Assembly: GCA_015063795.1 (NCBI GenBank)
Contig: SVTL01000009.1
Location: 1 to 64,000 of the forward strand
DNA: 64,000 nt
Direction of reading: 5' to 3'
Source: Oscillospiraceae bacterium
GTDB taxonomy: Bacteria; Bacillota; Clostridia; Oscillospirales; CAG-272
Each line of letters begins with the position of its first letter. Position 1 is the stretch's first letter. Under the pieces are notes generated by a model. That model was not told the DNA's origin. It worked only from the letters and a program-made list of their open reading frames with translations, and did no database searches. A program made the translations under genes and the position numbers. Below are positions 1-61,281 of this stretch, piece after piece.

Positions 1-1
1 T

Positions 2-115
2 TATATGCGTATTGTAGTTGTCGCTTATGATGATGAGTTACAGTTTTACGAAGCGTGTGGCTTTGAAAAAAGCAAAGATGCTTCGCCAATGTTTATAACA
101 TCGCTATGGACATAA
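2..115 (+). CDS. C-terminal fragment of a GNAT-like acetyltransferase (cut by window edge)
   Basis: Open frame from the window start ending YMRIVVVAYDDELQFYEACGFEKSKDASPMFITSLWT*; the FYEACGFE motif is typical of GNAT C-termini. Confidence 0.5.
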   Translation, partial: YMRIVVVAYDDELQFYEACGFEKSKDASPMFITSLWT

Positions 116-165
116 ATCAGCAAATTCCAATTTATCGAGAAACGATGGTGTACGGATCGTTAAAA

Positions 166-610
166 GCCTCCCTTGTGTAAAGGGAGGTGGCACGCGGAGC
201 GTGACGGAGGGATTGTAATGCAGCGAAAACACAATAAAGATATCGTTCCTACCGCAAGAATGCTACGAAAAAACATGACAAAAGAAGAAAAGCATCTTTG
301 GTATGATTTTTTGCGCACCTATCCCGTACGCTTTTCTCGTCAAAAGGTTCTCGGTAAATATATCGCAGATTTTTACTGTGCAGAGGCAAAGCTTGTCATT
401 GAGCTTGACGGTTCCGGACATTATACCGAAGAAGGAAAGCAATATGATGAAGAAAGAACCGCTTTTCTTGCAGAATACGGTTTGACAGTTATCAGAATAC
501 CGAATACGGAAATATATAAAAACTTTCGAGGTGTCTGTGAATATATTGATCACCTCATAGAACAATCCCTCAGTCAGCTTCGCTGACAGCTCCCTTTACA
601 CAAGGGAGCC
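166..610. mobile_element. MITE-like element carrying a DUF559 nuclease gene between hairpin-containing terminal inverted repeats
   Basis: Left arm GCCTCCCTTGTGTAAAGGGAGGTGGCACGCGGAGCGTGACGGAGGGATTG; right arm reverse complement GGCTCCCTTGTGTAAAGGGAGCTGTCAGCGAAGCTGACTGAGGGATTG; DUF559 ORF fills the interior. Confidence 0.75.
218..586 (+). CDS. DUF559 domain protein (Vsr-like PD-(D/E)XK endonuclease fold)
   Basis: MQRKHNKDIVPTARMLRKNMTKEEKHLWYDFLRTYPVRFSRQKVLGKYIADFYCAEAKLVIELDGSGHY... has the DUF559 signature. Confidence 0.87.
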   Translation: MQRKHNKDIVPTARMLRKNMTKEEKHLWYDFLRTYPVRFSRQKVLGKYIADFYCAEAKLVIELDGSGHYTEEGKQYDEERTAFLAEYGLTVIRIPNTEIYKNFRGVCEYIDHLIEQSLSQLR

Positions 611-771
611 TTTTTTGTTCACCTATGGCTTGTCATTTTTCCTGACAAGCACTGCATTTGTGTCCACAAATGCAAAATACGGCATACCCCTTTCGAGATA
701 TGCCGTATTTTTGAAAACTGTCCTTTAGGATACAATCCTATGGCTCCGCCGTTTTTTTCTTTTGTCGCTCC

Positions 772-3117
772 TCACGGCTTTTTTCTTAACAGCCGTTCGA
801 TGGTCTTTTTCGACAGCGCCATCAGCTCGGCGGCCTGCTCGGAATCGTAGGAATCGGCAAACAGACCGATGCTGCGCGCGTCGGGCTTCAGATGCACCTG
901 CCCGCTCTTGCCGTAGTCCAGCAGGATGCCGTCGGAGCAGGAGGCATTCTTCTCCTCGGCCAGCCGTGTCAGCAGACGGCTCCGCGTGCCGCCGTCGGGG
1001 AAAAGCAATTCCTCCTCCTCTCTGGCAAAGGGCGGAATGGCACTCTCCTCCTCGCGCAGGGTACAGCCCTCCCCCGCCAGCACCGCCAGCAGCTTGGCCG
1101 CGGCATGGGAGGCATCGCTGACGTAGAGATAGCTCCTCGCCGACGCGCGCAGCAGACGCTCCCCCTCCCCGCGGGGACGGAAGCTGTAATATTCGGCCTT
1201 GCCGCCCCGTTCGGAGGCGATCCGCTCCAGCGTCAGCGGCGAATGGAAGGGCAGGACGATCTTCTTCGCCCCTTTCTCCAGCTCGCTCCGCGCGATGATG
1301 GCCGCCGCGTGCCAGCCGTCCACCGCCGTCCCCCCTTGGGAAAAGACAAGCCCCTCGCCGCGGCTGTCCACGGTGATGCACACCTCCGCCTCCTCCTCGG
1401 AGCACAAAACAGCCCCCTTTTCGACCAGCGCCTCGGCCAGCCAATGGATGCCCTCCCCCTTCAGGCAGAAACGGGTGAAGGGGAGCGTTTCGGGCAGAAG
1501 CCGCGAAAGAGAGGCCGCATACAGTCCGCCGATGTCTGAAAACACGGCGCGTTTTGTCCTTTTGCCCTTCTCGGTCGGAGAGCCCCCACCCTCGCTCAGA
1601 TGGGAAAACAGCGCCTGCTCCGCCTCGCGCAAAGGATACAGCCCGTCGGCATCCCAGAGCGTGATGCGGACCGTCCCCTCCCCGCTTTTTCCCACGCAGG
1701 CGGTCAGCTTGCTGTTGAGATGGATGGCGGCAAAGGCGGCCAGACGGTCGAAGCCCACGCCCAGATCGAAGCAGACTCCGCCAACCTCCTCCATGCCGCA
1801 CAGCATCGCGTCCTTCCGCGCCTCCTGTCCCCTCTCGGCACAGACCGCGCATTTTCCGCCCCCTGCGCTCAGCGCCATCGCCCGTCCCAGCGAGCGGCAG
1901 ACCGAAAGCGTCAGCTCCTCCTCGCCGCCGTAAAAGCCGTCCCCCGCCGCCAGCATCAACGGGAAGGGGGAGGGCGTTTTTTCTTCCTCGCCGTGACGGA
2001 GATGGGTATGCCGCGCCAGCTTGGTTCGATCGGGAAGCACCGCGCCGTCCCCGATCACGCAGTCGCCGCCGATGATGCACCCCCGCCCGATGCGGACGCC
2101 GTCGCCCACCGTCACGTGCTCGCAGAGGATCGCCCCCTCGATCACGCAATTCCGACCAACGCTCACGCCGTCGAAGAGGAGGCTGTCCTCCACCACGCTT
2201 CCCTCCCCCACGCGGCAGTCGGCACCGAACACGGCAAGCGGCTCTGCTTCGCGCCCGAAGCGAGCAGTGTCATTATCGGGGCGTCTACGTATACCGAAGC
2301 GCTCGGTATACGTAGACTGCCCTTCGCTTTCACTCACATCTTCCTCCCCACCAAAGCAAACGGTATCCGCAGACTGCCCTTCGCTTTCCGAACGCTCCCG
2401 CCGCTTTCTTTCAAACTCCAGATTGGTCTGCAGCAGCACCCCCGCATCCCCGATGTCACACCAATCCGCCCCGTCGCTGACCGCATACAGCGCCAGCCCC
2501 ATCTTTACCATCAGCGGAAACAGATCCTTGGAAAAATCGAAGGGGAGCCCCTGCGGGATCAGCTTCAGCAGACTCTTCTGCAGCAGATAGATGCCCGTGT
2601 TGGCGCGGTTGGAAAACACGCGGTTCCACGCCGGCTTCTCCTCAAAGCGCGTCACCCTGCCCTCCGCATCGGTGAGAACGATGCCGTAACGGGTGGGATC
2701 GTCCACCTCCTTGAGCAGGATGGTCGCATCCGCGTGATGCTGACGGTGAAAGGCCAGCGCTCTTGACAGATCGATCTGAGTAAAGCAGTCGCCGCTGATG
2801 ACAAGAAACGTATCGCTCAGCCGCTCCTCGCAGACCTTCACGCCCCCCGCCGTCCCCAGCGGAACGCTCTCGTGGGAATAGGACAGGCGGATGCCGTTTT
2901 TCTCCTCGCCGCAGGCGGCACGGATGTCCTCCGCACGGTAGGCGGTGGTCAGTACGGCCTCGCGGACTCCGTGCCGCGCCAGCAGCTCCAGAATGTGAAA
3001 CAGCGTCGGCTTGCCCCCGATGGGGACCAGCGGCTTCGGACGGCTTTCGGTGATGGGGCGGAGCCTTCTCCCCTCTCCCCCCGCCAGAATGACGGCGGTG
3101 ATGCGTTCTTTGTTCAT
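772..3117 (-). CDS. Bifunctional NDP-sugar nucleotidyltransferase / left-handed beta-helix / phosphomannomutase-like protein
   Basis: MNKERITAVILAGGEGRRLRPITESRPKPLVPIGGKPTLFHIL nucleotidyltransferase motif, hexapeptide repeats, degenerate phosphohexomutase-like C-terminus. Confidence 0.87.
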   Translation of the reverse strand: MNKERITAVILAGGEGRRLRPITESRPKPLVPIGGKPTLFHILELLARHGVREAVLTTAYRAEDIRAACGEEKNGIRLSYSHESVPLGTAGGVKVCEERLSDTFLVISGDCFTQIDLSRALAFHRQHHADATILLKEVDDPTRYGIVLTDAEGRVTRFEEKPAWNRVFSNRANTGIYLLQKSLLKLIPQGLPFDFSKDLFPLMVKMGLALYAVSDGADWCDIGDAGVLLQTNLEFERKRRERSESEGQSADTVCFGGEEDVSESEGQSTYTERFGIRRRPDNDTARFGREAEPLAVFGADCRVGEGSVVEDSLLFDGVSVGRNCVIEGAILCEHVTVGDGVRIGRGCIIGGDCVIGDGAVLPDRTKLARHTHLRHGEEEKTPSPFPLMLAAGDGFYGGEEELTLSVCRSLGRAMALSAGGGKCAVCAERGQEARKDAMLCGMEEVGGVCFDLGVGFDRLAAFAAIHLNSKLTACVGKSGEGTVRITLWDADGLYPLREAEQALFSHLSEGGGSPTEKGKRTKRAVFSDIGGLYAASLSRLLPETLPFTRFCLKGEGIHWLAEALVEKGAVLCSEEEAEVCITVDSRGEGLVFSQGGTAVDGWHAAAIIARSELEKGAKKIVLPFHSPLTLERIASERGGKAEYYSFRPRGEGERLLRASARSYLYVSDASHAAAKLLAVLAGEGCTLREEESAIPPFAREEEELLFPDGGTRSRLLTRLAEEKNASCSDGILLDYGKSGQVHLKPDARSIGLFADSYDSEQAAELMALSKKTIERLLRKKP
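2283..2317. repeat. Perfect palindrome (15-bp stem, 5-nt loop) inside a coding region
   Basis: GTCTACGTATACCGA-AGCGC-TCGGTATACGTAGAC. Confidence 0.9.
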
Positions 3118-3924: not shown

Positions 3925-5595
3925 ATGAAAAAGAACGACGAAACATTGCGCATCATCTCCCTGGGCGGACTGGGCGAGATCGGCAAAAACATCACCGCCA
4001 TCGAATACGGCGAGGACATCATCCTCATCGACTGCGGTCTCGGCTTCCCCGACGACGATATGCTGGGCGTTGACCTGGTCATCCCCGACTTCACCTATCT
4101 GGAAAAGAAGCAGGAGAACATCCGCGGTCTCTTCCTCACCCACGGCCACGAGGACCACATCGGCGGAGTCCCCTACCTGCTCAAGGAGCTGGACGTCCCG
4201 GTCTACGGCACCCGCCTCACGCTGGGCATCTTAGACAACAAGCTGGCCGAGCACAGGCTGGACACCATCGCCGACCTGCACTGCGTCAAGGCAGGCGACG
4301 TGGTCAAGGCGGGCGTGTTTTCCGTGGAATTCATCCGCGTCAACCACTCCATTGCCGACGCCTGCTGTCTGGCCGTCAAAACGCCTTACGGCACGGTGGT
4401 CCATTCCGGCGACTTCAAGCTGGATCTCACCCCCGTGGAGAGCGAGATGATGGACCTCACCCGCCTCGGCGAGATCGGCAAAAAGGGCGTGCTGGCGCTG
4501 CTGTGCGAGTCCACCAACGTCGAGCACCCGGGCTACACCATGTCCGAGCGCACGGTGGGCAACTCTCTTGACGGCATCTTCATGAAAAACCCCGACAAGC
4601 GTCTGATCATCACCACCTTCTCCTCCAACGTCCACCGCGTGCAGCAGATCATCAACACCAGCGTCAAATACGGACGCAAGGTGGCCATCACCGGCCGCAG
4701 CATGCTGAACATCGTGGGCGCGGCCATCGAGCTGGGCTACATCAACGCACCGCAGGGCTCGATCATCGACATCAACGAGCTGAAGCGCTATCCCGCCGAG
4801 CAGATCACCATCGTCACCACCGGCAGCCAGGGCGAGCCCATGTCCGCTCTCTACCGCATCGCCTTCTCCGATCACGAAAAGGTCCAGCTGGGCCCGAAGG
4901 ATCTGGTGGTCATCAGCGCCAACCCCATCCCCGGCAACGAAAAGCTGGTGGGCAAGATCATCAACGAGCTCTTCCGCAAGGGCGCATCGGTCTTCCGCGA
5001 TTCCACCGTGGAGGTGCACGTGTCCGGCCACGCCTGCCAGGAGGAGCTGAAGCTCATGCACGCTCTCACCAAGCCCAAATACTTCATGCCCGTCCACGGC
5101 GAATACCGCCATCTGATCCAGCACCGTGAGCTGGCCAAGACCATGGGCATGCCCGAAAAGAATATTTTTGTTTCCGAGATCGGCAAGGTTCTGGAGATCG
5201 ACCGCAAGGGCGCCCGCTTCAACGGCACCGTTCCCTCGGGGCGCGTGCTGGTGGACGGCTACGGCGTGGGCGACGTGGGCAACATCGTCCTGCGCGACCG
5301 CAAGCACCTGTCCCAGGACGGTCTGATCGTGGTCGTTGCCACCATCGATTCCGATGAGCGCCTGCTGCTCTCCGGTCCCGACATCGTTTCCCGCGGCTTT
5401 GTGTACATGCGCGAGGCCGAGGAGCTGATGGACGAGGTGAAGGCCATCGCCGCCGACACCATCAACGAGTGTCTGGACAACGCCATCACCGACCGCGCCC
5501 AGATGAAGTCGATGCTCAAGGACGACCTGACCAAGTTCCTGTACAGCCGCACGAAAAAGAAGCCCATGATTTTGCCGGTCGTGACGGGTGTGTAA
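3925..5595 (+). CDS. rnj: Ribonuclease J
   Basis: MKKNDETLRIISLGGLGEIGKNITAIEYGEDIILIDCGLGFPDDDMLGVDLVIPDF...LTHGHEDHIGG metallo-beta-lactamase/beta-CASP signature. Confidence 0.95.
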   Translation: MKKNDETLRIISLGGLGEIGKNITAIEYGEDIILIDCGLGFPDDDMLGVDLVIPDFTYLEKKQENIRGLFLTHGHEDHIGGVPYLLKELDVPVYGTRLTLGILDNKLAEHRLDTIADLHCVKAGDVVKAGVFSVEFIRVNHSIADACCLAVKTPYGTVVHSGDFKLDLTPVESEMMDLTRLGEIGKKGVLALLCESTNVEHPGYTMSERTVGNSLDGIFMKNPDKRLIITTFSSNVHRVQQIINTSVKYGRKVAITGRSMLNIVGAAIELGYINAPQGSIIDINELKRYPAEQITIVTTGSQGEPMSALYRIAFSDHEKVQLGPKDLVVISANPIPGNEKLVGKIINELFRKGASVFRDSTVEVHVSGHACQEELKLMHALTKPKYFMPVHGEYRHLIQHRELAKTMGMPEKNIFVSEIGKVLEIDRKGARFNGTVPSGRVLVDGYGVGDVGNIVLRDRKHLSQDGLIVVVATIDSDERLLLSGPDIVSRGFVYMREAEELMDEVKAIAADTINECLDNAITDRAQMKSMLKDDLTKFLYSRTKKKPMILPVVTGV

Positions 5596-14651: not shown

Positions 14652-15076
14652 TGCCGCTTCGCGGCGCGATATGTTGGCTTTGCCAACGCGATATGTGCCG
14701 GCAGGATGCTCCGCATCTGCGCTGAGGCACGCGATATGTCCGCTTTGCGGACGCGATATGGTTGGCTTCGCCAACCGTGAAAAAGGGAGACTATCATGAC
14801 GCGAAAGCGTCAATTCATGCCGCGCAGCGGCATTTTCCATCACATTCGGCGAAGCCGAATACATCACGCCCACGCAGTGGGCATATCGCGTTCGGGCTCT
14901 GCCCGAACATATCACATTCGGCGAAGCCGAATATATCACGCCCACGCAGTGGGCATATCGCGTTCGGGCCATGCCCGAACATATCACATTCGGCGAAGCC
15001 GAATATATCACGCCCACGCAGTGGGCATATCGCGTTCGGGCTCTGCCCGAACATATCACGTTTGGCGAAGCCAAAC
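14652..15076. repeat. Variable-stem hairpin array A (ATATCGC/ATATCAC linkers)
   Basis: Inverted-orientation half 14652-14780, forward half 14797-15076; includes three 72-bp tandem copies at 14844, 14916 and 14988. Confidence 0.9.
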
Positions 15077-37389: not shown

Positions 37390-37740
37390 GGCTTGTTTTT
37401 TTGAAAGTTTTTGGGTGGTCCAGGCCCCCTTTTTTCAAAAAGGGGGTTTGGTGGGGTTTGGGGCAAAGCCCCATGCCCGGCACTTTCTTTTTGCAAAGCT
37501 TTTTCTTTGTGCCTACATAGGCAAAGAAAAAGCGTCTTCAAGGAAGAAATTACTCCCTCTCGGCGCTTCGCGCCGAAATAAAGCATCAGCAAAGCCGATA
37601 GCCGCTTTTCTCTTGGCTATTCAGGCGCAAGAGAAAAGCTAAGCAAAAGAGAAACGCCATGCATGGGGCTGCCGCCCCAAACCCTGCCTTAGGTACCTTT
37701 TTGAAAAAAGGTACCTAAGAACCGCCAAAAACTTTTAAAC
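37390..37740. repeat. Complete long inverted-repeat element of the CTTTTTGAAAAAAG-core family
   Basis: Left CCCCCTTTTTTCAAAAAGGGGG, GGGGCAAAGCCCC, GCTTTTTCTTTG..CAAAGAAAAAGC; right arm repeats the order in reverse with different stems (GGTACC, GGGGC..GCCCC). Confidence 0.75.
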
Positions 37741-37758
37741 GATGTGAAGCGATGCCCG

Positions 37759-39777
<2,019 letters not shown>

Positions 39778-39993
39778 TCAAGCTTTTTCAAAAGCTTGCG
39801 GGGTGGAGGGGCGGAGCCCCCCGTAACGGCACTTCTCTTTTGCAAAGCTTTTCTCTTGGGCCTACATAGGCAAGAGAAAAGCGTCTGACGAAAAGCAGTT
39901 GCTTCCCTTTTTGCAGTTATCTGCGAATTGCGCCTGCGGCGCATGAGATGTCTTTCTCCTTTGGTGAAAGACGAAATCGGGGGAAGAAACCCC

Positions 39994-40218
39994 TCATTTC
40001 TTCCTCTCCACCAAACGGCTGACGGTGGATTGGGTGAAGTAGATCTTCTTGTCGGTGACGAGGAAGGAGCGGGGCATATCGCTCCAGAGGTGCTCGGTTT
40101 TACCCATTTTCTCGGCGTGGGAGAGAAAGGACGCTGTTTTTTTGGTGGCGCGGTCGAGGTCGAAGATGCCGATGACCTCCTTGTCGCGGATGTAGCGGTT
40201 GCCGATGGACAGATACAT
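39994..40218 (-). CDS. remB: RemB/YaaB-like DUF370 protein
   Basis: MYLSIGNRYIRDKEVIGIFDLDRATKK..., position between recF and gyrB. Confidence 0.85.
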   Translation of the reverse strand: MYLSIGNRYIRDKEVIGIFDLDRATKKTASFLSHAEKMGKTEHLWSDMPRSFLVTDKKIYFTQSTVSRLVERKK

Positions 40219-40285
40219 ATGGCTGTTTTCCTTTTTTGGTGTTTATCTTTTCCGCAAACGGTATGTTCACGGAAGCGGAGCGCCT

Positions 40286-40556
40286 TTAGAAAGTTTTTGG
40301 GGTTCTTAGGTACCTTTTTTCAAAAAGGTGCCTAAGGCAGGGTTCGGGGCGGCAGCCCTGACAATCTTTGCCTCTTACGGCGCTTTGCGCCGTGTGTTTG
40401 CTTTGGTGGTATCGTCAGACGCTTTTCTCTTGCTGACAGAAGGCGCAAGAGAAAAGCTTTGCAAAAGAGAACGCCGGTGACGGGGGAGCTTCCCCCGCGC
40501 CCCCGTTTAGAAACCTTTTTGAAAAAAGGTTTCTAAAAACTTCCAAAAACTTTCAT
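40286..40556. repeat. Complete CTTTTTGAAAAAAG-core element
   Basis: CTTAGGTACCTTTTTTCAAAAAGGTGCCTAAG at left, TTAGAAACCTTTTTGAAAAAAGGTTTCTAA at right, inverted outer ends AAAGTTTTTGG/CCAAAAACTTT. Confidence 0.75.
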
Positions 40557-40585
40557 GAAGACAATGCAATCAAAAAATTGAGGTG

Positions 40586-41662
40586 TTATTCAAAGAATGC
40601 TCCGTTTTCCACGCGGATTTTTTTGGCGGCAATGCCGTCGAAATCGCTCTCCATGCAGGTGGTGACCACCGTCTGCCGTCCGTCCATGGCCTCGAGAACA
40701 CGCGCGCGGCGGCGGGCATCCAATTCACTGAGCACGTCGTCAAACAGATACACCGGCGACGTGCCGCTGATCTCCTCAGACAGCATCCCTTCCCCGATCT
40801 TGAGAGCAAAGGCGATGCTTCTCTGCTGCCCCTGCGAGGCAAACAGTCTCGAGTCGCGCCCGTTCAATTCGATGATGATGTCGTCGCGGTGAATGCCGTA
40901 AAGAGTCGCGCCCGCGGCGATCTCACGCTCGGTGTTCTCGCTCAGCTTGCGGAGATACTCCTCCTCGCTCAGCCGCTTGTCGTATCGCATGCTCACGCAC
41001 TCCTCCCCGCCCGACAGATGGCGGAAGAAGCCGGCAACCTTTTGTGAGATCGCCTCGGTGAAATGCTCTCTTTCCTGCGCGATGTACGCCGCTTCCCTTG
41101 CCAGCTGTGCCGACCAGATGGCCAGCGTGGTGTCAAAGGAGGGGGATCTGCCGTTCTCTGCGCTTTTCAAAAGACTGTTTCTCTGCTTTAAGATGTTGTT
41201 GTATTTCTGCAGCGAGAGCAGAAACAGCGGCTTCAGCTGACAGATGGCCGCATCGGCAAACAGCCTGCGCTCGCCGGGACCGCCCTTGACCACCCCAATG
41301 TGCTCGGGGGAAAACAGGACAGCGCGGAAAGAGCCCATAAATTCGGCGGCGGAGGGGATGTGAACGTCGTTTTTGCGGTGCTCCCTGCCCCGTCCGGCAA
41401 AGAGGCGGAGCGAAAGGACATTGTCCCGCCGTCCGTCGTGGTAAGAAAGAGACAGACGGGAACACTCTTTTCCGAACGCCACCAGATCCTTGTCAAAGGC
41501 GGTGCGGAAGCTCTTGCCGTTGGCGAAGAGATAGAGAGCCTCCAGAGCGTTGGTCTTCCCTTGGGCGTTGGCGCCGCAAAGGATGTTCATTCCGCTTTCA
41601 AAATGCAGGCTTGCTTGTTCGATGTTTCGGAATTGTTCGATGTCAATGGTTGTCGCTTCCAT
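40586..41662 (-). CDS. recF: DNA replication/repair protein RecF
   Basis: FRNIEQASLHFESGMNILCGANAQGKTNALEALYLFANGKSFR. Confidence 0.95.
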   Translation of the reverse strand: MEATTIDIEQFRNIEQASLHFESGMNILCGANAQGKTNALEALYLFANGKSFRTAFDKDLVAFGKECSRLSLSYHDGRRDNVLSLRLFAGRGREHRKNDVHIPSAAEFMGSFRAVLFSPEHIGVVKGGPGERRLFADAAICQLKPLFLLSLQKYNNILKQRNSLLKSAENGRSPSFDTTLAIWSAQLAREAAYIAQEREHFTEAISQKVAGFFRHLSGGEECVSMRYDKRLSEEEYLRKLSENTEREIAAGATLYGIHRDDIIIELNGRDSRLFASQGQQRSIAFALKIGEGMLSEEISGTSPVYLFDDVLSELDARRRARVLEAMDGRQTVVTTCMESDFDGIAAKKIRVENGAFFE

Positions 41663-41713
41663 CCTGTCCTCGTTGCTTGGAAATGACGCCGCACAGCGGC
41701 AATGAATCATATT

Positions 41714-42056
41714 TCCCCTTTTAAAAGTTTTTGGGTGGTCCAGGCCCCGGAAGAAAGCCGAAGGCTTTCTTCACACAGTTGCACTGTGTGCAACTGTTCC
41801 TTTTCATTCAAAAAGGGGGTTTGGCGGGTTGCAGGGCAGCGCCCTGTGCCGGCACTTCTCTTTTGCAAAGCTTTTCTCTTGTGCCTACATAGGCAAGAGA
41901 AAAGCGTCTAAGGGGAAGATATTGCTTTCCTTTTTGCTTTTGGCGATGCTCACGCATCGCTGGAGAAGTAGGAGATGTCAGGGGCTTCCCCCCTGAAACC
42001 CTGACTTAAGAGGCTTTTTGAAAAAAGCCCCTTAAGAATCCGCAAAAACGTTTATA
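41714..42056. repeat. CTTTTTGAAAAAAG-core element with secondary hairpins inside its first hairpin
   Basis: Inserted GAAGAAAGCC-GAA-GGCTTTCTTC and CAGTTGCA-CTGTG-TGCAACTG in the first hairpin. Confidence 0.75.
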
Positions 42057-42146
42057 AAAAAGTTGCTTTCCCTTTTTTAAAGTTTTTGAGGGGATTCCAA
42101 AGGGGAATCTTTTTTCAAAAAGTTCCCCTTTGGTCAATCAACCAAA

Positions 42147-43310
42147 TCAAATATTCTCCTCCGGCGGGCGGACGGGGAGGACCATAATGGTGAAAGCGCC
42201 GTCCTTGAAGTCCTCGTCGGGGTTGGCGGGGGAGAGGACCATTCCCATCAGATTGGTGTTGAGCGAGAGCTTAAGCTTCTCCATCGAGCAGGCGCGGACA
42301 GCCTCTAACAGTCTCTTACAGGAGAAGAAGATGGTGATGTCCTTCCCTTCCTTACGGATGGGGAGATCGTCGTAGAAGCGGCCGCTGTTGGACTGGGTGG
42401 AGATCTTCAGCTGGCTTCCCTCGAAATCGCAGCGGAGGATGCTCTTCTTCTGACCAAGCTCGCGGTCCTCGGTGACCAAAGCGGCGCGCTCGAGAACCGA
42501 GATCAGGTAGTCGGAATCGACGTGAACGGTGGTGGCGGCCTCCTTGGGCAGGAACTTTTCATATTCAATGTAATCGCCCTCGATCAGACGGGAGAAAAGA
42601 ATGTAGTCGCCCATCTTGAAAACGGCATGCTTGCGGTTGAAATAAACGATCGCCTCCTCGTCGGAGTCCTCCAACATCCGGTAAAGCTCGGCAACGGTCT
42701 TGCCGGGGAGGATGAGGCTCTTGTTGATGGAGGAGCCGTCGTTCATGTCCTTGGCGGAGCAGTTCATCGAGCAGACCGAGAGAACGAAGTGGTCGGTGGA
42801 GGCGGCGGTAATCTTTTCGTCATTGGCTTCCAGATACAGACCGTTGAGCGTGGGCTTCACATCGTTCTGCGCCACGGAGAAGAGGGTTTTGCCGATCATG
42901 GCGCGCAGGTGCTTCTGCTTGACGGGAAAGGGATGGTCGCCGCCCAGCTCGGGCATGCTGGGAAAATCGCGTCCCTTGAGCGCATGGAGACCGAACTGGC
43001 TGCGTCCGCTGGTGATGGAAACGATGTTTTTGTCGTCGATGTCCACCGTCAGCTCCTCGTCGGAGAGGGAGCGGACGATCTGAGTAAACTTATTGGCGTT
43101 GAGGATATAGCTTCCCTCGCGCTCCACGCGGCAGGGGATGGTGGTACGGATACCCTTTTCCAGATCGTAAGCGACGGCGGAGCAGGTGTTTTCGTCAACG
43201 GTGGTGAAGAGGATACCGGAGATGGTGGCGATGGTATTGCGGGTGGAGACGGCGCCCATCACGGGAGCGAGGCGATCGAGAAGGACCGCTTTTTCAAAGG
43301 TGATTTTCAT
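42147..43310 (-). CDS. dnaN: DNA polymerase III beta sliding clamp
   Basis: MKITFEKAVLLDRLAPVMGAVSTRNTIATISGILF, position after dnaA. Confidence 0.97.
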   Translation of the reverse strand: MKITFEKAVLLDRLAPVMGAVSTRNTIATISGILFTTVDENTCSAVAYDLEKGIRTTIPCRVEREGSYILNANKFTQIVRSLSDEELTVDIDDKNIVSITSGRSQFGLHALKGRDFPSMPELGGDHPFPVKQKHLRAMIGKTLFSVAQNDVKPTLNGLYLEANDEKITAASTDHFVLSVCSMNCSAKDMNDGSSINKSLILPGKTVAELYRMLEDSDEEAIVYFNRKHAVFKMGDYILFSRLIEGDYIEYEKFLPKEAATTVHVDSDYLISVLERAALVTEDRELGQKKSILRCDFEGSQLKISTQSNSGRFYDDLPIRKEGKDITIFFSCKRLLEAVRACSMEKLKLSLNTNLMGMVLSPANPDEDFKDGAFTIMVLPVRPPEENI

Positions 43311-43377
43311 ATCCAAAATTCCTTTCAAAGGGGGATTATTTTATAAGAAAACGAAAAATAAGAAGGAGCGCGCTTTT

Positions 43378-43652
43378 TTTAAAGTTTTTGGGTGGTCCAG
43401 GCCCCCTTTTTTCAAAAAGGGGGTTTGGCGGGTTGCAGGGCAGCGCCCTGTGCCGGCGGTTTCTTTTTGCTAAGCTTTTTCTTTGCGCCTACATGGTCAA
43501 AGAAAAAGCGAGTAAACGAAGACAGCAAAGCAAGCAAACGGCGCAAAGCGCCGTAGAAAGGGCAAGAGATGTCAGGGACTTCGTCCCCGAACCCCTGACT
43601 TAAGAGGCTTTTTGAAAAAAGCCCCTTAAGAATCCGCAAAAACTTTCAATCG
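43378..43652. repeat. Complete CTTTTTGAAAAAAG-core element between dnaN and the origin
   Basis: CCCCCTTTTTTCAAAAAGGGGG ... CTTAAGAGGCTTTTTGAAAAAAGCCCCTTAAG. Confidence 0.75.
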
Positions 43653-51533: not shown

Positions 51534-51665
51534 AGGCTCCCCTTTTTGAAAGGGGAGCTCCCGACGAAGTCGGGTGAGGGGATAGAAAAAAACCGCTTTG
51601 CGGATACGGAAACGATCCCCTCCGTCACGCTGCGCGTGCCACCTCCCCTTTACGAAAGGGGAGGC
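51534..51665. mobile_element. Short MITE with the same terminal repeats as the DUF559 element
   Basis: Left GGCTCCCCTTTTTGAAAGGGGAGCTCCCGACGAAGTCGGGTGAGGGGAT; right reverse complement GCCTCCCCTTTCGTAAAGGGGAGGTGGCACGCGCAGCGTGACGGAGGGGAT. Confidence 0.82.
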
Positions 51666-61122: not shown

Positions 61123-61281
61123 GGCACCTTTGGTGCGCGATATATTCCGCTTCGCGGACGTGATAGGTTCGGGCATAGCCCGAACGTGATATATTCGGCT
61201 TCGCCGAATGCGATATACCGCTTCGCGGTGTGATATGTTGGCTTCGCCAACGCGATATATTCGGCTTCGCCGAATGTGATA
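61123..61281. repeat. Variable-stem hairpin array L (reverse orientation)
   Basis: CCGCTTCGCGG, GTTCGGGC..GCCCGAAC, ATTCGGCTTCGCCGAAT, GTTGGCTTCGCCAAC, GTGATAT/GCGATAT linkers. Confidence 0.9.

Follow-up and report, generated by a model that had tools for sequence, protein, structure and literature searches.

A DUF559 nuclease gene enclosed by inverted hairpin repeats, a candidate mobile element of Clostridia

The window, which is the whole stretch of 64,000 nucleotides analysed in this study, contains at positions 163-613 of the + strand a gene for a DUF559 nuclease enclosed by inverted repeats that each comprise two hairpins and a short box. The ends and the gene form one co-inherited unit, and this unit recurs at unrelated sites. 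We tentatively interpret 163-613 as a self-contained mobile element belonging to a family not yet described, driven by the DUF559 protein acting on the folded ends, an explanation that we consider nearly as likely to be right as wrong. That the DUF559 protein is the engine by either route, folded ends or homing, is probable.

Element anatomy and the encoded nuclease

The element measures 441 bp from hairpin 1 to hairpin 1 (168-608) in the sequence of the window. Each end comprises, from outside to inside, AAAGC or AAAGG, hairpin 1 (CTCCCTTGTGTAAAGGGAG), a GNA-triloop hairpin 2, and the GAGGGATTG box; the left module is followed by the gene of the 122-aa DUF559 nuclease and then by the same module inverted. 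The outer tips are AAAGC (163-167) and CCTTT (609-613), and the limits of the whole element are supported by a second copy, by copies in other genera, and by the tip frequencies. These outer bases were conserved over 88 elements, and no conservation was observed beyond the tips.

On the left (+ strand), hairpin 1 at 167-187 is CCTCCCTTGTGTAAAGGGAGG, that is, CCTCCC TTGTGTAAA GGGAGG, a subfamily-specific hairpin whose type tracks the DUF559 tree. Hairpin 2 at 191-203 is CACGC-GGA-GCGTG, which has a GNA triloop and a C-G closing pair and is supported by covariation and loop statistics, and the box at 203-216 is GACGGAGGGATTGT, identified from its sequence and kept in other copies. This box carries GGAGG at 206-210 (GGAGGG at 206-211), the likely ribosome-binding site of the DUF559 gene, which extends from its ATG at 218 to 586 on the + strand. 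On the right (- strand), the box at 563-571 is CAATCCCTC, which reads inwards as GAGGGATTG and was recognized from its sequence and in other copies. Right hairpin 2 at 573-587, supported by folding, covariation, and loops, reads inwards as GTCAGC-GAA-GCTGAC (GTCAGC-TTC-GCTGAC on the + strand) and contains the stop codon TGA (584-586) of the gene; the C-terminal residues QSLSQLR come from right-repeat sequence. Right hairpin 1 at 589-609, supported by folding and terminator score, is GCTCCCTTTACACAAGGGAGC (GCTCCC...GGGAGC), which together with the T-run downstream of it makes a terminator-like site and was scored as an intrinsic terminator. The two ends are not identical, because a C-G closing pair followed by GTGGC marks the left and a G-C pair followed by CTGTC marks the right; this closing-pair difference was found in 37 of the 54 paired ends, across several hairpin types. 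The first-pass annotation had claimed that a DUF559 gene is fitted into inverted hairpin-containing repeats, that the middle hairpins differ and keep both complementarity and a GNA triloop, and that the ribosome-binding site and the stop codon lie in the left repeat and the right hairpin, respectively; the sequence confirmed this layout at the coordinates given above.

No Rfam family exceeded its gathering score over window positions 1-1000. Directly after the right end, positions 618-735 contain a conserved three-hairpin module with a DNA fold z-score of -7.3. Modules of this type, observed in L019, L021, L156-L160, and L235-L245, lie directly 3' of many copies. They also occur in fragmentary form or where the element is absent, and in 17 of 59 relatives they are repeated in their own right.

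DUF559 proteins occur in many bacteria and to our knowledge have no agreed role. The protein of the window matched the PF04480 profile with 102.7 bits (cut-off, 20.6; E 1.3e-29), all 31 aligned relatives matched as well, and the residues E24, D51, E62, D64, and H68 were invariant in the alignment of 31 diverse members. A profile search of the PDB retrieved 3hrl, a DUF559 protein of Neisseria (E 1.9e-20), and 3r3p, the mobile-intron homing endonuclease I-Bth0305I (E 5e-4); Foldseek with an AlphaFold2 model (pLDDT 88.6) retrieved 3hrl, 3r3p (E 5e-4), and, weakly, Vsr (1cw0). The earlier claim of a Vsr-related PD-(D/E)XK fold is borne out by these matches, and the protein is predicted from sequence and model to be a Vsr-like PD-(D/E)XK nuclease. 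Judged from the sequences, it is under strong purifying selection, with a median dN/dS of 0.054 between close copies (54 non-independent pairs). PADLOC and PHROGs yielded weak matches only, to restriction- or homing-type nucleases, and the Pfam matches of the element were DUF559-related only, with no known transposase family among them. Structure comparison also identified the Vsr-like fold in RNA-binding RAP proteins, in which such folds bind RNA (PMC11879112); by analogy, Vsr-like DUF559 may have an RNA role.

Copies of the element and the link between ends and gene

A second full copy with 91% identity and different flanks was found on another contig of the host genome, which also contains about six gene-less short copies of roughly 120 bp that keep both ends at different sites. 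The hairpin-1 pattern occurred 2-14 times per genome in six genomes, and a control pattern read backwards occurred 0 times. Matching sequence was present in 49 of 97 relatives, with full elements of 441-445 bp in several genera, and order-mates and gut viral contigs carried the same ends with unrelated flanks. IMG/VR provided 77 stretches with an end hairpin, often as paired forms of 91-184 bp and in some cases as a lone end at the boundary of phage genes; when all fetched loci were searched by tblastn, no DUF559 gene was detected in these 77 stretches. Gene-less and single-end forms carry the same ends as the full element, the gene-less short forms are more numerous than the full elements, and genome G031 contains short forms with no matching DUF559 copy found. 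The window itself holds, at 51536-51664 on the - strand, a gene-less paired element of 129 bp with another hairpin-1 type (CTCCCCTTTTTGAAAGGGGAG), the same module order, and a GAA-loop hairpin 2. With few copies in the genome and only 91% identity between the two full ones, no very recent movement was seen.

Single right ends of 53 nt were observed at phage gene boundaries (L122:5690-5750, L048 about 1920-1975, and L101 about 5340-5395), and the one in L048 apparently supplies the stop codon. Some short forms repeated within a genome (L274, L275, and L276 in G036; L278, L283, and L284 in G031) sit within larger repeats, because near-identical flanks of at least 20 bp are repeated with them.

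Flanking inverted repeats were found for 63% of 116 distinct related DUF559 genes versus 2% of the control ORFs, the latter being 91 ORFs from the same kind of loci judged at the same repeat-score threshold. The DUF559 gene of the window scored 69, whereas the median of the controls was 17 and their 99th percentile 29. Between the ends of elements of 427-478 bp, the only gene found was DUF559. Hairpin 1 varies by lineage, with loops of the GTGYA, TTGCCTAAA, TCTGAYGA, and TTCCCC types and others, and its labels required 31 changes on the DUF559 tree versus 68 when shuffled, the tree having few alignment columns and many unresolved forks. For the four clear hairpin types with two later proteins, the tree needed 4 changes, the smallest number possible, versus 29 when shuffled. 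The proposal that the repeats move with the gene is upheld by the 63% versus 2% comparison, by the agreement of hairpin type with the gene tree, and by the presence of the unit at unrelated loci. DUF559 genes without the repeats, which the first-pass annotation had named as evidence against its idea, were encountered in part: about a third have no detectable matching end pair, and many of these retain one end. Few families recurred among 298 neighbouring ORFs; a general hot spot was rejected, the recurrence of neighbours being no higher than expected by chance.

The same arrangement was found outside Clostridia. Among 19 DUF559 genes in plasmid and phage records from Proteobacteria, Deinococcota, Cyanobacteria, and gut phages, 12 had flanking inverted repeats with a score that 14 of 570 shuffles reached. 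On plasmids of Sphingomonas parapaucimobilis (L318:393-878 and L334:450-904), DUF559 genes with inverted C-rich hairpins lie inside conserved operons, one between sufB and sufC and another within a transhydrogenase operon, and their ends match the module of the window in the order hairpin 1, GAA-loop hairpin 2, GGAGGGG. The sufB-sufC gap in Azospirillum argentinense is a few dozen bases. The Neisseria DUF559 gene (NGO0050) showed no clear flanking repeats in the same test.

In Azospirillum lipoferum (NC_016623.1, L323:593-1211), inverted GTCATCCCCGCGAAGGCGGGGATCCAG hairpins between sufB and sufC enclose a GIY-YIG nuclease gene, and its relative B510 (L324) is without this gene between sufB and sufC. 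This unrelated nuclease may share the life style of the DUF559 element, and, with this one example, other small homing-type nucleases may have built elements of this kind independently.

Folding of the ends and comparison of related sites

Both ends, folded as single-stranded DNA, had z-scores of -5.1 to -5.9, and 0 of 200 dinucleotide shuffles folded as well. The middle sequences of hairpin 2 included 44 distinct ones on the left (22 stems) and 48 on the right (23 stems). Stem length was 4.36 on the left versus 2.98 (maximum, 3.5) when hairpin halves were swapped among sequences of equal length in 200 rounds, and the corresponding values on the right were 5.06 versus 3.59 (maximum, 4.27). The exceptional stability of DNA mini-hairpins generalises from GAA to GNA loops. 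The 49 distinct triloops comprised 36 of the GNA form, and 48 were closed by C-G; mini-hairpins of the GCGAAGC type are extraordinarily stable as DNA (PMC10527192). Hairpin 2 is under structural selection, probably as DNA, to judge from these patterns of sequence variation. Because it covaries and retains the C-GNA-G loop, foldback DNA appears to matter, which lends the role suggested earlier for foldback DNA indirect support.

Related sites differ in element state, with a full element, one hairpin, or no element. A methyltransferase gene has a full element at its 3' end in L157 and L158, and L236, with a left flank 93% identical, has only AAAAGCCTCCCTTGTGTAAAGGGAGCCTTTTTT. In further relatives, the same 3' position is occupied in L300 and L302 by an element of a different DUF559 clade, which groups with the TTCCCC clade (SH-aLRT 98), and in L301 by its single hairpin. 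A second site contains a short form in L269, a single hairpin in L241, and nothing in L244, and within one genome, L280 and L281 have near-identical flanks with the body present versus absent. The comparison of empty sites suggested by the first-pass annotation thus yielded presence/absence variation, and no certain pre-insertion site was found among the related sites compared.

Several candidates for such a site were rejected. The single-hairpin alleles L236, L241, L281, L285, and L268 carry the outer bases of both ends, a combination more simply explained by deletion between AAGGGAG repeats; L240 is the sole perfect terminator among the single-hairpin alleles. In L244, the neighbouring hairpin is truncated, which fits deletion between GGGAG repeats rather than a pristine empty site. 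The relatives of the viral loci were too diverged, and the locus around L136 was too rich in repeats for a genus comparison. Target-site duplication was sought in 81 elements, and no enrichment of any offset or length rose above multiple-testing noise. Insertion into existing hairpins was rejected as a general rule, with few cases (7% vs 2% of permuted flanks). Most elements (68 of 73) were not spanned by an ORF of at least 100 aa.

Possible mechanisms and relation to known systems

We infer that DUF559 mobilises the element by acting on folded single-stranded DNA and also moves the short copies in trans. The nuclease would most likely recognise the folded ends, with hairpin 1, which differs by subfamily, as the identity signal and hairpin 2 read as a C-GNA-G-looped DNA hairpin. 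Nicking of the ends would occur in their single-stranded state, and the element would be copied or moved without target duplication. We favour this explanation because full and gene-less forms share both ends at different flanks, because flanking repeats accompany 63% of the genes versus 2% of the controls and hairpin type tracks the DUF559 tree, because related sites show presence and absence without target duplication, and because the arrangement recurs in other phyla (12 of 19). The covariation of hairpin 2, the C-G-closed GNA loops, fold z-scores below -5, the conserved active site, purifying selection, and homology to a homing endonuclease also agree with it. Counting against this explanation are the low copy number, the 91% identity of the full copies, the short forms alone in G031, and the roughly one third of genes without a detectable end pair; the single-hairpin alleles, moreover, fit direct-repeat deletion better than a pristine target.

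Alternatively, DUF559 may cut a terminator-like target in double-stranded DNA near gene ends, and break repair would then copy the element in. In that case the hairpins would not be a single-strand substrate but would belong to the target or to a terminator, and the element would spread like free-standing homing endonuclease genes. This mechanism, the main rival, is unlikely, although several observations agree with it: I-Bth0305I is the closest mobile relative by sequence and fold, two DUF559 clades share the methyltransferase 3' position in different genomes (L157/L158 vs L300/L302), right hairpin 1 scores as a terminator, and the elements are closer to the 3' ends of genes (median, 99 vs 218 nt). 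However, apart from this one shared site, the flanks are unrelated, with no conservation past AAAG/CTTT and rarely recurring neighbours, unlike a long homing site. Homing also offers no role for structured ends with covarying GNA hairpins, and the gene-less short forms would depend on activity supplied in trans at a common target.

The excess of gene-less short forms over full elements, and the genomes that contain short forms without a DUF559 copy, are compatible with hairpin repeats that belong to a REP or MITE family of another, unlinked transposase, one version of which captured DUF559. We consider this quite improbable, because DUF559 is the only gene between the ends in the 427-478-bp elements and the link spans many lineages and phyla, with diverged ends tracking the DUF559 tree, which is unexpected under a foreign transposase. 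Even less probable is a non-mobile repair or restriction-like nuclease gene regulated at the RNA level by terminator and leader hairpins. The terminator score of hairpin 1, the ribosome-binding site in the left box, the weak similarity to methyl-directed restriction enzymes, a Caulobacter DUF559 protein in a DNA-damage context (PMC12907096), and RNA binding by Vsr-like folds (PMC11879112) agree with such a gene, but gene-less modules with both ends are present in phages and at many sites, each end is an inverted copy of the other with a sequence specific to its subfamily, and C-G-closed GNA triloops are a DNA-hairpin signature.

Among known systems, the best reading of the element is a REPtron-like mobile element whose sole enzyme is a Vsr-like nuclease. 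REPtrons combine a RAYT/TnpA-REP transposase with REP palindromes, the short paired forms of which are REPINs (PMC3733652, PMC8266576). In both systems, inverted hairpin repeats enclose a single small nuclease gene, palindromic ends are common to dispersed gene-less copies, gene-less paired or single copies are numerous and mostly intergenic, and hairpin and enzyme co-evolve (PMC3733652, PMC8266576). In contrast to REPtrons, the DUF559 element has a PD-(D/E)XK Vsr-like protein rather than an HUH tyrosine transposase as its only ORF, the tips AAAGC/CCTTT in 88 elements rather than GTAG at the hairpin foot, two hairpins and a box in each end, and about 1-8 copies per genome. We did not class it as a REPtron because both the HUH transposase and the GTAG tag are absent. 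I-Bth0305I is likewise a Vsr-like enzyme, related in sequence and fold and itself part of a mobile intron, whereas the DUF559 gene lies in terminal hairpin repeats with gene-less derivatives and without an intron, an intein, or a long conserved target. Insertion sequences and MITEs share terminal inverted repeats and the coexistence of autonomous and gene-less forms, but the DUF559 element has no DDE, HUH, serine, or tyrosine transposase and no target-site duplication, and its hairpins lie inside each end. Neisseria NGO0050 (3hrl) and Caulobacter VsrA belong to the same protein family and fold and have been studied as host genes (PMC12907096).

The open library searched, which takes in only a minority of subscription journals and preprints, contained nothing relevant on DUF559 with mobile palindromes or on the end sequence. 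We know of no mobile-element class that has this enzyme as its sole protein together with structured ends. If DUF559 is the mobiliser, it would represent a class of enzyme new to bacterial mobile DNA, and the element would possibly be among the smallest autonomous ones (about 450 bp, 122 aa). Such elements would then also account for the origin of many palindromic repeats between genes that are so far unexplained, in parallel with REP/RAYT but through an unrelated enzyme. A pan-bacterial class of mobile elements with a single DUF559 nuclease and hairpin ends, which would be a source of many C-rich hairpin repeats and range over Clostridia, Proteobacteria, Deinococcota, Cyanobacteria, and their phages, is a substantial possibility that we nevertheless lean against slightly. 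Every subfamily would come with a candidate substrate of its own, which makes the question of what DUF559 cuts directly testable.

The window also contains other repeats. Positions 14760-15076 and 61193-61275 hold an unrelated array of palindromic repeats, in which regularly spaced TTCGGCGAAGCCGAA and TTCGGGC...GCCCGAA hairpins alternate, and several CCTTTTTTCAAAAAGG-type hairpin copies lie about 200-300 bp apart at 37425-43623.
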